Of a stretch of DNA of 58,689 nucleotides, positions 11,328 through 57,139 are shown piece after piece. A program made the translations under genes and the position numbers. Position 1 is the first letter of the stretch; every line of letters starts with the position of its first letter. Location of the stretch: contig JAFRDB010000112.1 of assembly GCA_017404065.1 (NCBI GenBank), forward strand, positions 1-58,689, read 5' to 3'. The DNA is from Clostridia bacterium. GTDB lineage: Bacteria; Bacillota; Clostridia; UBA1381. The notes beneath the pieces are model-generated. The model saw only the letters and a program-made list of their open reading frames with translations, searched no databases and was not told the DNA's origin.

Positions 11328-11370
11328 CCCTGTTGTCTCCAATCCTTATTATATGATTTCTGAAAAGCCG

Positions 11371-11538
11371 TTTGAGGAAAATGCGCAACGAAGATTGTGC
11401 GTATGAGCAAGCGAGGCTATTAGCACCGCCAAGATGGGCGGACAGCCGTCAGGCTGGCTTTTGACGTAGTCAAAAGTGCTGAATGACTATATGCGAGCTT
11501 GCGAATGCGTGCAAGATTCAAAGCGCATTTTTCTCAAA
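11371..11538. repeat. Composite inverted-repeat element between cysK and nifS
   Basis: TTTGAGGAAAATGCGC (11371-11386) pairs with GCGCATTTTTCTCAAA (11523-11538), one mismatch. Inside are several smaller hairpins: CCGCC/GGCGG near 11437, CAGCC-GTCA-GGCTG near 11452, and CTTTTGAC-GTA-GTCAAAAG near 11459-11477. The element starts 2 bp from the cysK stop. It could attenuate or process the cysK-nifS transcript, or be an inserted palindromic repeat. No promoter was recognised between cysK and nifS. Confidence 0.6.
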
Positions 11539-11539
11539 C

Positions 11540-12478
11540 TTATTCGCTGAACATTGGCGTTGACAGATACCTGTCTCCCGTATCCGGCAAGAGCGCAACT
11601 ATGGTCTTGCCCTTGTTCTCGGGACGCTTGGCAAGCTCGGTCGCTGCCCAAAGCGCAGCGCCTGAGGATATGCCCACAAGAACACCCTCCGTACGCGCAG
11701 CCGTTCTGCCGACTGCAAAGGCATCCTCGTTCCTTACGGTTATGATCTCATCATAAACGTCAGTGTTAAGCGTATCGGGCACAAACCCCGCGCCTATACC
11801 CTGTATCTTATGCGCTCCGGCTCTGCCCTCCGAAAGCACCGGTGAATCGGCAGGCTCTACGGCTACTATCTTAACCTTCGGGTTCTGCGACTTCAGATAC
11901 TCGCCCACACCCGTTATCGTACCGCCGGTGCCTACTCCGGCAACAAATATATCCACCTTGCCGTCCGTGTCATTCCAGATCTCCGGTCCCGTGGTTTTTT
12001 TATGGTATGCCGGATTTGCCGGATTTGTGAACTGACCGGGAATAAATCCGCCCGGTATCTCCCTTGCAAGCTCCTCCGCCTTTGCAATAGCACCCTTCAT
12101 GCCCTTTGCACCCTCTGTGAGCACGAGCTCCGCTCCGTATGCCTTCATAAGATTGCGTCTTTCAACGCTCATCGTTTCCGGCATGGTTATAATTATCCTG
12201 TAGCCTCTTGCCGCCGCGACAGATGCAAGACCGATACCGGTATTGCCTGAGGTCGGCTCGATTATTACCGAATCGGGCTTTAACAGTCCCTTCTCCTCGG
12301 CGTCATCTATCATAGCCTTTGCTATTCTGTCCTTTACCGAACCGGCGGGATTAAAATATTCGAGCTTTGCGAGAACCCTCGCCTCAAGTCCGTTTGCCTT
12401 CTCATAATTGCTAAGCTCCATGAGCGGTGTGCCGCCTATAAGCTCTGTTAATGTGCTATAAATTCTTGACATTTTCAT
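11540..12478 (-). CDS. cysK: Cysteine synthase (O-acetylserine sulfhydrylase)
   Basis: 312 aa, standard length. PLP enzyme making cysteine from O-acetylserine and sulfide. Visible are the PLP lysine in [11 protein letters not shown] (about 47), the substrate-loop TSGNTG (about 75), and the phosphate-binding [10 protein letters not shown] (about 180). It starts 12 bp after the metY-type gene with SD GGAAG, so both share the promoter at 13831-13858. In Bacillus, CysK also acts as corepressor partner of the Rrf2 protein CymR; an Rrf2 gene lies just upstream here, though it looks more IscR-like. Confidence 0.96.
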
Positions 12479-23084: not shown

Positions 23085-23130
23085 TATAACTCAACACCTT
23101 GTAGTTCTCGTCTTTTTTCGCTCTTTTCAT
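23074..23130 (-). CDS. Possible 18-aa leader peptide overlapping the addB start
   Basis: ATG at 23130 encodes MKRAKKDENYKVLSYNEG, stopping at 23074 inside the first codons of addB in another frame. AGGAG lies about 20 nt before, which is far. Such an overlap could couple addB initiation to leader translation, and addB itself has a weak SD. Could be chance. Confidence 0.25.
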   Translation of the reverse strand: MKRAKKDENYKVLSYNEG

Positions 23131-23193
23131 TACATCAGGTTTTTTCAGATCTCCTGTATATCAAACTCAATGATCCAATCATCTTATATATAA

Positions 23194-23222
23194 AGTATAC
23201 CACACCTCCGCAAATAAATCAA
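23194..23222 (-). promoter_or_regulatory. Promoter of addBA
   Basis: TTGATT (23217-23222), 17-bp spacer, TATACT (23194-23199) on the minus strand. The untranslated leader would be roughly 105 nt. Confidence 0.65.
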
Positions 23223-23249
23223 GCCAATTTTCTCTTGCACCTGCAACAG

Positions 23250-23364
23250 TAAATTTCAGTTTATCGGGGGACTGCCGTCCCCCGCGCCCCTTGCTTAGCT
23301 ATTGGTGCAGCGGGGGTTTTAGGGGGCGGCAGCCCCCTAAGCTACTAATTTAAACTGAAATTTA
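23250..23364. repeat. Palindromic element, copy 1 (type A, 115 bp)
   Basis: Perfect 14-bp terminal inverted repeats, TAAATTTCAGTTTA (23250-23263) and TAAACTGAAATTTA (23351-23364). Inside are two 8-bp GC-rich hairpins: CGGGGGAC-TGCC-GTCCCCCG (23265-23284) and TAGGGGGC-GGCA-GCCCCCTA (23320-23339); their tetraloops are mutually complementary. The same design and length occur at 54680-54794 in opposite orientation. Looks like a non-autonomous mobile palindrome (REP/MITE-like). No transposase was seen in the window that would obviously match it. Confidence 0.85.
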
Positions 23365-23380
23365 TCTTCCGATTCCGGCA

Positions 23381-23479
23381 GCGCCGGTTTGATGCGCGTT
23401 CAGCTAAAGCCATAGCAAAGCCCTTGCGAAACTTCAAACAAACACAAGCAACAAAGCGCAGAGCGCAGCAAACCGGCGC
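23381..23479. repeat. Second inverted repeat abutting palindromic copy 1
   Basis: GCGCCGGTTTGATGCGC (23381-23397) pairs with GCGCAGCAAACCGGCGC (23463-23479), 16 of 17 matching, with 65 bp between. The stretch from the element end through this left arm (TCTTCCGATTCCGGC...) also follows copy 2 at 30816-30846, so it is part of the repeated unit or a preferred neighbour. Confidence 0.6.
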
Positions 23480-23532
23480 GATACATTATGCTGTTTGTGT
23501 ATAAGCCTTATGTGTGTATGGGGGTTAAAGGT

Positions 23533-23700
23533 GGAAACGCAGTTTCCAAACTACGGCGTTTGTCTGGTCGGTCGCTCTGCGACCTGCACGACCTGGCATC
23601 CTGGTTGCTATGCAACAGGTACCTGAAAGAAGTCAGGCGGGGCATAGCCCCGGACTTGCTTAGCAAGTCTACTGAACGCCTACGACACGCCAGCGTGTCG
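23533..23700. repeat. Array of short GC-loop hairpins (nested module)
   Basis: Consecutive small hairpins: GGAAAC-GCA-GTTTCC (23533-23547), GGTCGC-TCT-GCGACC (23570-23584), GTTGC-TAT-GCAAC (23604-23616), CGGGGC-ATA-GCCCCG (23638-23652), GACTTGC-TTA-GCAAGTC (23653-23669), CGACACGC-CA-GCGTGTCG (23683-23700). Most share a GC-NNN-GC centre. Five lie within or next to an outer pair CTACGGCGTT (23551-23560)/AACGCCTACG (23675-23684), which also frames the insertion in palindromic copy 4 (57003-57053). No gene is credible in 23131-23731. Confidence 0.75.
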
Positions 23701-23731
23701 TTCACCCTGCCGAAATTTACATCCCTTTCAC

Positions 23732-23760
23732 TCATATTTTCGGACATCCCCGCGTAAAAT
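23732..23760 (+). promoter_or_regulatory. Sigma-E-like sporulation promoter for spoIIP
   Basis: TCATATT (23732-23738), 14-bp spacer, CGTAAAAT (23753-23760). This fits the mother-cell sigma-E pattern (KMATATT-N14-CATACAMT) with 6 of 8 in the -10 box. spoIIP is sigma-E controlled in Bacillus. Confidence 0.5.
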
Positions 23761-23791
23761 TAAATACATGAGATTTTTCAGAGGTAGACAA

Positions 23792-24910
23792 ATGAAATGG
23801 TTAGGAATATGTATAATAAATAAAAGACGTTTTTACAAGCGGCTTACCGCCGCGGCATTGGCTGCTATGGCAGCGGGCGCTGCGGCGGGACTTTGCATCG
23901 GAGCGTACCGCGGTATGCCGGAGGCGGCGCCCGCATTCTCACCGCAGGACGTTATAAAGGAAGGTCTGCCGCACGAGGACGAACCGTTTAACATAAAAGG
24001 GTTCGTGAACACTCTGCTTGGCTTCGATACAGACAAGCCGGAGACGATAATCGAGCAGTCCTCCGTACTCTTTACCACACCTGTGCCGACAGCGACGCCC
24101 ATATCAACGGCCGAACCCACGCTGCCGCCGCCACCGCCGCCTGCCGCCGGCGAGCTTCCGCAGCTGCCGGAACACGACGCGATAATCGCAGCGAACGGAC
24201 TAAAGATTAATAATGCGACCGGATACAGCGTTGACCTTGACGCGCTTGCCGCGCAGCCGAGCGAGGTGAAGGCTGCTTTGACCGACGCTCCGGAGGTGCT
24301 TATAATGCACACTCACACCACAGAATGCTACATAGGTGACGAGATGAGCGGCGAGTCCGAGCGAACGACCAATGAGAACTACAACGTCTGCGCGGTTGCG
24401 GATGTGCTTGCCGGATCAATAGAGGCATACGGCATACACACTGTTCACGATAAGACCATACACGATTACCCGTCCTATCAGGGCTCATACACAAGAGCGC
24501 TCAATACCATAACGGAGGACATGAAAAAATATCCCTCCGTAAAGGTCGTTATCGACCTGCACCGCGACGCGTACGTATACCCCGACGGAACAAAGCTGCG
24601 TGTTGCCGCAAACGTAAACGGCCGCGAGACAGCGCAGGCAATGCTTGTGCTCGGCACCGACAGCATGGGGCTTTACCATCCGTACTGGCGCGCGAACCTC
24701 TCCCTTGCCGCAAAGATACAGAGCGCTGCGGAGATAATGTATCCCGGCATGATGCGGCCGATCAACCTGCGTCGGGAGCGTTTTAATATGCACGTTACAA
24801 AGGGCTCGATCCTTATAGAGGTCGGCAGCAACGGCAACACACTTGCCGAGGCAAAGGCAGCTGCCGAAAACCTCGGCGCGGCGATCGCCGCGGCACTCAT
24901 AAACGGATAA
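23792..24910 (+). CDS. spoIIP: Stage II sporulation protein P (SpoIIP)
   Basis: 372 aa from the ATG at 23792 (GAGG 7 nt upstream; an ATG at 23768 lacks an SD). SpoIIP is a peptidoglycan amidase/endopeptidase that, with SpoIID and SpoIIM, thins septal wall during forespore engulfment. A basic N-terminus and one hydrophobic segment (about 18-38) anchor it to the membrane. A Pro/Thr-rich linker (around 95-120) precedes the catalytic domain with zinc-site motif MHTHTTECYI (about 171-180) and VVIDLHRDAY (about 252). The second copy of the motif Ser in HTHTTES is Cys here. Its presence implies an endospore former. Confidence 0.93.
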   Translation: MKWLGICIINKRRFYKRLTAAALAAMAAGAAAGLCIGAYRGMPEAAPAFSPQDVIKEGLPHEDEPFNIKGFVNTLLGFDTDKPETIIEQSSVLFTTPVPTATPISTAEPTLPPPPPPAAGELPQLPEHDAIIAANGLKINNATGYSVDLDALAAQPSEVKAALTDAPEVLIMHTHTTECYIGDEMSGESERTTNENYNVCAVADVLAGSIEAYGIHTVHDKTIHDYPSYQGSYTRALNTITEDMKKYPSVKVVIDLHRDAYVYPDGTKLRVAANVNGRETAQAMLVLGTDSMGLYHPYWRANLSLAAKIQSAAEIMYPGMMRPINLRRERFNMHVTKGSILIEVGSNGNTLAEAKAAAENLGAAIAAALING

Positions 24911-30534: not shown

Positions 30535-30654
30535 TTTTATATCCTCCTCACATTTTGTCACTTGATATTATATCACATATCTCCCCCCGTTGCAAGTCCT
30601 AACGGCATAATTTTTAAGTTTTTAAAAACAGTAAGTTTCTTGCGAATAAAATTG

Positions 30655-30815
30655 TAAATTTCAGTTTGTCGGACTCCCTCCGTCAGCCCTTACGGGCTGC
30701 CACCTCCCTCAAGAGGGAGGCAAGAATTGTGGTACACCGATACTTGACCCCCTCTTGAGGGGGTCGGCGCGATAGCGCCGGGGGGAGTTGACACTCCCCG
30801 ATAAACAGAAATTTA
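30655..30815. repeat. Palindromic element, copy 2 (type B, 161 bp)
   Basis: Ends TAAATTTCAGTTTG (30655-30668) and TAAACAGAAATTTA (30802-30815), near-perfect to the other copies. Internal hairpins: CAGCCC-TTAC-GGGCTG (30684-30699), CCTCCCTC/GAGGGAGG near 30703-30720, CCCCCTCTTGAGGGGG near 30748-30763 and CGGCGC-GATA-GCGCCG (30765-30780). Copy 4 (56888-57108) is the same type inverted. The 30562-31043 gap otherwise holds only the SLH promoter and a 23-bp tandem duplication. Confidence 0.85.
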
Positions 30816-30928
30816 TCTTCCGATTCCGGCGGCGCAGGTTTGCTGCACATTTCCCTTTATTTGCGCTTGCCAAGGGGACGGTTGCCATTCCGATAAGCCG
30901 GAGTCCGGAATGCTTGTATAAGTTATGT

Positions 30929-54663: not shown

Positions 54664-54679
54664 GGATATAGTAGTGATA

Positions 54680-54794
54680 TAAATTTCAGTTTAAATTAGT
54701 AACTTAGGGGGCTACCGCCCCCTAAAACCCCTGTTGCACACGCGTCTAAGCAGGGGGCGCGGGGGACGGCAGTCCCCCGACAAACTGAAATTTA
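54680..54794. repeat. Palindromic element, copy 3 (type A, 115 bp)
   Basis: Ends TAAATTTCAGTTTA (54680-54693) and CAAACTGAAATTTA (54781-54794). Same length as copy 1 but in reverse orientation. Inner hairpins TAGGGGGC-TACC-GCCCCCTA (54705-54724) and CGGGGGAC-GGCA-GTCCCCCG (54760-54779). The last three bases are the stop codon (TAA on the minus strand) of the small membrane-protein gene. Confidence 0.85.
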
Positions 54795-54992
54795 GTGTTG
54801 CAACGATCCCTTTTCTATTATCCTGATCCCCTCATACATCTCTGTTGTATCGGGCAAAACATGCTCGCTGCTTTTTTTACGACTTACATGGTTTTTGTAC
54901 AAACCCTTTGTTCTTACAATATCATACACGATCCAACCCAGTGTAGCAGAAAATCCTGCTGCACCGAAAACAATAAGCATAGCTCCAAGCAT
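54792..54992 (-). CDS. Small membrane protein with C-terminus ending in the repeat
   Basis: 66 aa, SD AAGGAG 8 nt upstream. One TM helix at about 4-25 (AMLIVFGAAGFSATLGWIVYD), then a basic cytoplasmic tail. It starts 19 bp after the kinase gene and is co-transcribed with it, so may be part of the same signalling unit. Its stop codon consists of the last three bases of palindromic copy 3, meaning the insertion may have changed the original C-terminus. No family recognised. Confidence 0.7.
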   Translation of the reverse strand: MLGAMLIVFGAAGFSATLGWIVYDIVRTKGLYKNHVSRKKSSEHVLPDTTEMYEGIRIIEKGSLQH

Positions 54993-56772: not shown

Positions 56773-56887
56773 TTCACTATCTGCCTTTTTATCTTAACCG
56801 GTCATATATGATCTTCTTTCATTCTATCATAGATCATTTAAAATTGCAAGAAAAAGAAACTGTGTTTACACGGTTTTTGAATAAGAG

Positions 56888-57108
56888 TAAATTTCAGTTT
56901 ATCGGGGAGTGTCAACTCCCCCCGGCGCTATCGCGCCGCCCCCCCTCAAGAGGGGGGTCAAGTATCGGTGTACCACAATTCTTGCCTCCCTCGGGAGGTA
57001 AAACGAAACGCTTGCGTTTCGTAGGCGTGTTGCATAGCAACAAACGCCGTAGCTAAAAGGTGGCAGCCCGTAAGGGCTGACGGAGGGAGTCCGACAAACT
57101 GAAATTTA
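56888..57108. repeat. Palindromic element, copy 4 (type B, 221 bp, with nested insert)
   Basis: Ends TAAATTTCAGTTTA (56888-56901) and CAAACTGAAATTTA (57095-57108). The interior is copy 2 inverted, interrupted by about 60 bp between GGT (56997-56999) and AAAAGGT (57055-57061). The insert has hairpins ACGAAACGC-TT-GCGTTTCGT (57003-57022) and TGTTGC-ATA-GCAACA (57028-57042) and matches the module at 23551-23700. The flank ACAATTTTATT is shared with copy 2. The gap 56773-57198 has no gene. Confidence 0.85.
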
Positions 57109-57139
57109 CAATTTTATTAACAAAAAACTTTCTCATGTA

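Follow-up and report, generated by a model that had tools for sequence, protein, structure and literature searches.

What is the dense cluster of small hairpins that lies in the addB-spoIIP intergenic region of this Clostridia genome, and how did it come to be there? Within the window, i.e., the whole 58,689-nt stretch of DNA analysed here, positions 23532-23701 hold six perfect short hairpins and one irregular hairpin (23622-23637). The perfect stems are TGGAAAC-GCA-GTTTCCA (23532-23548, forward strand), GGTCGC-TCT-GCGACC (23570-23584), TTGC-TAT-GCAA (about 23603-23613), CGGGGC-ATA-GCCCCG (23638-23652), GACTTGC-TTA-GCAAGTC (23653-23669), and ACGACACGC-CA-GCGTGTCGT (23682-23701, forward strand). 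A preliminary description had counted at least six hairpins with a common GC-NNN-GC centre. The six perfect hairpins stand, but the centre (GC-N2-3-GC) is found in only five of them, within about 120 bp, and is absent from the TGGAAAC hairpin, where the loop GCA lies between AC and GT, as well as from the irregular hairpin. These hairpins do not occur at chance frequency, as five GC-centred hairpins were observed in 170 bp, whereas the whole window, when shuffled 200 times at the dinucleotide level, yielded three per 170 bp at most. Likewise, a scan of 1.23 Mb of the same genome revealed 227 perfect stems with a GC centre (at least 6 bp, loop of 2-3 nt) versus 59 in shuffled sequence, an enrichment of ~4-fold that is somewhat inflated, like all densities from this sample, because 20 of its 80 pieces were picked for carrying the repeat. 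Clusters of four or more GC-centred hairpins were found 10 times in the same 1.23 Mb.

Comparing the array with its own genome by blastn gave 81 matches of differing lengths, which sort into modules by content. The core module runs from CTACGG to TTCACC (23551-23706, forward strand) and measures 156 bp here, where it carries two inserts, A and B, and 55 bp when empty. The empty core reads CTACGGCGTTTG-[TTGC TAT GCAA]-CACGCCTACG, after which come a second hairpin and YTYACC; about 24 such copies are present in the source genome, with 33-34 nt from CTACGG to CCTACG. The other forms in this genome measure 75 nt (core with A), 93 nt (core with B), and 134 nt (core with A and B), and the window copy is the 134-nt form, composed of 33 + 42 + 59 nt with A contributing 42 bp and B 59 bp. 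The terminal core hairpin is represented by the compensated variants GAAACGC/GCGTTTC and CAACACGC/GCGTGTTG in other core copies, and the TGGAAAC hairpin adjoins the core, recurring beside other copies as GGAAACTGCGTTTCC. As the preliminary description had noticed, the frame CTACGGCGTT/CGCCTACG is common to the array and a site at 57.0 kb, and the expansion, which it estimated at some 100 bp, amounts to exactly 101 bp (from 33 to 134), corresponding to A plus B. Its proposal of a Russian-doll insertion is also borne out, since cores that are empty, carry A only, carry B only, or carry both coexist in the source genome, and the outer repeat is found in the window with and without the core. Intermediate forms thus support the insertion of hairpin elements into another hairpin element. 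However, the repeated insertion of one hairpin type has to be abandoned in favour of at least three families, namely the core, the single-hairpin A, and the triple-hairpin B, together with outer MITE-like repeats. Close DNA relatives of the whole array were not detected by blastn in 60 relatives, phages, or plasmids.

The surroundings of the core are themselves repetitive, and further copies of most of 23247-23710 are found in other parts of the source genome. An outer MITE-like element with the inverted ends TAAATTTCAGTTTATCGG...TTTAAACTGAAATTTA occupies 23247-23365 (forward strand), and full copies that are 89-97% identical lie at 54802-54679 of the window and on another contig. It is followed by a second outer palindromic repeat block (23372-23547, forward strand) with arms GCGCCGGTTTGATGCGC (23381-23397) and GCGCAGCAAACCGGCGC (23463-23479), parts of which are found on several other contigs. 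The outer element without the core, i.e., an empty site, is seen at 30651-30840 (forward strand) when aligned with 57115-56881 (reverse strand), where the outer element at 56881-57115 carries the 33-nt core form in an arm of the hairpin CCTCCCTC-AA-GAGGGAGG. In the source genome, the core is found in several unrelated outer frames, including those with ends AAATTTCAGTTTRTCGG, those of the type TTGCAGGG...CCCTGCAA, and those with ends like GTTTGGATAAAATCG. The source genome contains 143 matches to the inverted-end motif, and facing pairs among the matches listed are ~0.16-0.37 kb apart. Four MITE-like elements with ends AAATTTCAGTTTRTCGG lie in the window (23247-23365, 30651-30820, 54679-54802, and 56889-57108); many of the 143 ends fall at contig ends, and the pairs listed include no autonomous partner. 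A further outer palindromic element of the GGCGGTAC...GTACAGCAC type, common to several genera, carries either A or B (L211, L212, L216, L218, L226, and L234).

Insert A is an irregular single hairpin of 42 bp, located by a 43-position match of model R1 at 23562-23604 (forward strand). It is laid out as GTC-TGGTC-G(head)C-TGCACG-AC-CTGGCATCC-TG, in which conserved motifs flank a variable head. The mismatches of TGGTC opposite TGCTCG are nearly invariant across copies, and every copy listed shows covariation at a conserved Y...R position. A is also present within other outer repeats of the source genome, and its outer 3 bp vary on both sides (GTC/GAC, CAC/GTG, CCC/GGG, and GGC/GCC). Three comparisons define its ends: the core (GGCGTTT^GTTGC); locus L202 (ATGCGATGG^GTCC), where A interrupts the reading frame of an IS6/IS240-type transposase; and locus L201 (GAAGACCG^GGATAAA), where two A copies lie in frame within a 933-aa ORF with PPDK_N and PEP-utilizers domains (a PPDK/PEP-utilising enzyme). 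The empty sites at L202 and L201 were deduced from the reading frame, and no intact copy of the IS6-type gene was found in the same genome to serve as an exact empty site. In all three comparisons, the junctions are precise within 1-2 ambiguous G, with a G after the junction and no longer duplication. Empty and filled sites leave at most 1-2 ambiguous bases at the target, so that insertion appears precise, with any duplication limited to 1-2 bp. Copies of A also sit inside the loop of a terminator-like hairpin in another species (L194), as tandem multiples of parts of A (L125, 8000-8370), and in head-to-tail arrays with a period of 42-44 bp (L299, 1501-1628, reverse strand, 3 x 44 bp; L309; L289). 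At several loci of other species and of presumed viral contigs (L198, L209, L210, L267, L271, L279, and L305), the end of A coincides with the Shine-Dalgarno sequence of the downstream gene or lies close to it. The 3' end of A (CCNRGG) may supply part of this sequence, and the abutment could arise if A prefers to land before a G.

Insert B is a 59-bp triple hairpin, AGGTACC-hp1-hp2-hp3-TACTGA (23618-23676, forward strand), which model R2 matches at 23619-23676 with 88.5 bits; its boundary is ambiguous by an A at either end. A second, diverged B element is matched by R2 at 11423-11483 (forward strand, 33.5 bits, E 1e-9), inside another outer repeat (about 11361-11540).

The array was also considered as part of a gene or its control region. 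A coding gene was rejected, as the array holds just two chance ORFs of 89 and 79 aa on opposite strands and is absent from orthologous loci. In addition, the elements lie mostly outside long ORFs: of the copies counted, 1 of 32 for A, 2 of 40 for the core, and 1 of 14 for B fell within ORFs of 150 codons or more, which make up 83% of the sample. Neither of the conditions that the preliminary description named as refuting it, chance frequency and a coding array, thus applies. The array is absent upstream of spoIIP in 21 spoIIP loci of other species, where orthologous genes display a similar short AT-rich element without any hairpin array. The link to spoIIP implied by the preliminary description is therefore unsupported, and regulation of spoIIP by a conserved array was rejected. 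The distance of 31 bp to a sigma-E-like promoter is correct, the promoter itself being putative. No intrinsic terminator (a GC-rich hairpin followed by a T run) was found in 23085-23800, and neither the window nor the array nor 11 other loci gave a relevant Rfam 15 match, whether at the gathering score or as a credible weaker one.

Both inserts extend well beyond the source genome. Using covariance models, A (E up to 0.01) was found in 22 of 246 other genomes (23 of 247 including the source genome) and B in 27 of 246 (28 of 247), with many strong and some marginal matches in either case; the marginal matches of A are probably due in part to chance. By its model A crosses genera and families, with matches in other genera in G013 (4.6e-17), G086 (3e-14), G200 (1.3e-12), and G172 (1.7e-11), several matches in other genera and families being very strong. 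B was likewise matched in other genera (G024, 4e-23; G077, 4e-19; G019, 9e-19); it scores highest in those belonging to the same family and reaches 8-9 copies in some. Among 391 genomes of the class, a pattern search located A in 15, whereas a backward control matched none; one genome holds 18 copies, and tandem arrays occur in others. The pattern also matched 36 presumed viral contigs, a good half of which have a properly paired head, the rest being GC-rich chance matches. In the phylum outside the class, the covariance model of A gave weak matches only, which were taken as chance. In other species, A and B are found without the outer repeat, and they spread independently within and between species. 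No paper in the literature searched contains the motif strings of the elements, and A and B seem to be very small mobile elements of a group not yet catalogued.

What A and B conserve is pairing rather than stem sequence. Across species, 99.3% of A is paired, with 74 two-sided versus 2 one-sided changes, and 99.1% of B, with 63 versus 0, where fitting of the A4 and A5 alignments to the models favours paired cells; the A1 alignment of the source genome, not fitted to structure, has 96.6% of its cells paired and 49 two-sided changes. We read the array as a nest of small non-coding mobile elements, in which A and B have inserted into the core and are recognised as folded single-stranded DNA, and assign this reading a probability of about 0.72. 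The double-hairpin core would have landed among the outer repeats that lie between addB and spoIIP, and come to carry A, one irregular hairpin of 42 bp, and B, three hairpins in a row over 59 bp. The unit recognised would be the folded single strand, and a trans-acting enzyme may read the irregular motifs (TGGTC/TGCTCG and the 3' tail in A; GNACC and TNCTGA in B), leaving the stem tips free to change while still pairing. The elements might gather inside one another as intergenic, hairpin-rich DNA tolerates insertion.

One alternative is that the array is a true REP/BIME, moved by a RAYT/IS200-type tyrosine transposase that is missing from the assembly or was lost by it. On the reverse strand the core reads GTAG-GCGT-GTTGC-ATA-GCAAC-AAACGCC-GTAG, i.e., it starts with GTAG followed by an imperfect palindrome, and its GC-flanked loops of 2-4 nt are as described for GTAG REPs (PMC3733652). 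The stem irregularities of A recall those conserved in E. coli REP (PMC8266576), and a clear target duplication is lacking. However, this explanation is unlikely, as no Y1/RAYT transposase (PF01797) was found in the source genome (G000) or in the element-rich relatives G005 (10 A hits), G033 (6 A hits), and G062 (9 B hits), and neither A nor B has the terminal GTAG tag, which in GTAG REPs precedes a stem of 6-9 bp. Furthermore, GTAG families have been reported from Proteobacteria, Cyanobacteria, and Chloroflexi, with Firmicutes unmentioned (PMC3733652). Near A at 53 other loci no dedicated transposase recurs; the recurring genes are phage structural genes, a large serine-recombinase-like protein, and shared chromosomal neighbours.

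A second alternative, which we consider improbable, is that the elements act in cis as transcribed structured RNA, e.g., a riboswitch-like leader or an element of stability or translation, that controls the gene next to it, with mobility being secondary. The strong covariation of the stems would fit, as would the copies of A just before Shine-Dalgarno sequences listed above, the sense strand facing the gene in 14 versus 5 of 97 A copies (a few of these 14 are weak or were found by the pattern alone), and the conserved G-U/U-G pairs of A, which exist on the TGGTC strand only. However, selection on RNA normally leaves G-U intermediates, whereas DNA hairpins gain less from G-U, and in the varying stems such pairs are almost absent: 2 of ~627 unconserved stem cells compared to 25 of 301 tRNA-stem pairs of the same genome (Fisher p ~5e-11, a guide only, as the copies are related). 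This near-absence, unlike in tRNA stems, points to pairing at the DNA level, although the low G-U could derive in part from recent common ancestry of the copies or homogenisation of the arms rather than DNA recognition. Nor does a cis-acting RNA agree with the lack of an Rfam match, the absence of the array at spoIIP orthologues, or the presence of A in both orientations, in other outer repeats, in the terminator-like hairpin (L194), and in genes (L201 and L202), and the A copies of the source genome have no sense bias (1 versus 1).

Slightly less probable still is that one arm is copied onto the other by template switching at replication, without structural selection, and that only the outer repeat moves, as an ordinary MITE. 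Stem changes do come in matched pairs, and loops are flipped on identical stems (GGCGGC with TAT/ATA and AAA/TTT; GCAAGC with TAT/ATA), a pattern reported for template switching (PMC8604942). However, simple homogenisation of the arms would erase the irregularities TGGTC/TGCTCG, and their near-invariance suggests recognition by a protein; the copies of A and B without the outer repeat in other species also speak against it. Judging from the flipped loops, template switching may nevertheless act on the stems alongside the insertion of mobile elements. Finally, the idea that one element grew internally by slippage or tandem duplication, without any insertion, can practically be dismissed: tandem copies do exist at L125 and L299, but A and B are unrelated in sequence to the core and are found alone elsewhere as independent copies.

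Since empty copies occur side by side with copies that carry one or both inserts, the ends of the elements and the order of insertion can be read directly. The families are defined by pairing rather than sequence and can be traced across genera and into presumed viral genomes, and with the covariance models and the pattern, gut-type Clostridia can be searched simply for this uncatalogued group of repeats. Such repeats break assemblies in these bacteria, with many copies at contig ends, and their covariation may be mistaken for that of regulatory RNA. Palindromic repeats of very small size abound in bacteria, and for most of them no mover is known. It could be speculated, with the odds somewhat against it, that A and B are founding families of undescribed, structure-defined mini-elements of about 42-60 nt in Clostridia and their phages, moved as folded single-stranded DNA by machinery other than that of REP/IS200, with tips that diversify as pairing is kept.

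Among known systems, REP/BIME and REPINs come closest, being likewise small intergenic palindromes of high copy number that form mosaics of several units without clear target duplication, and they share the stem irregularities, the GC-flanked 2-4 nt loops, and the GTAG, here at the core end on the reverse strand. With its strand-specific irregular hairpins, the array works like REP/BIME, but it is not filed as REP because Y1/RAYT is absent from the source genome and several element-rich relatives and A and B lack GTAG; moreover, its units are nested rather than alternated, free in stem sequence within a family, and common to several genera. Rickettsia palindromic elements resemble A in forming hairpins that lie both in intergenic DNA and within genes, where they keep to the reading frame (as A in L201). 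However, they are 105-146 bp long (PMC2229807), whereas A and B measure 42-59 bp, are mainly intergenic, and are found in Clostridia and presumed viral contigs. Bacterial MITEs such as ERIC, RUP, and Correia are matched by the outer repeats, whose inverted AAATTTCAGTTTRTCGG ends are paired 0.16-0.37 kb apart, but not by the core, A, or B, whose ends are not inverted repeats of each other and for which no TA duplication was seen. Mitochondrial double-hairpin elements and GC clusters, which are short mobile hairpins, may bear some resemblance, whereas the elements described here are bacterial and belong to several families nested within one another.
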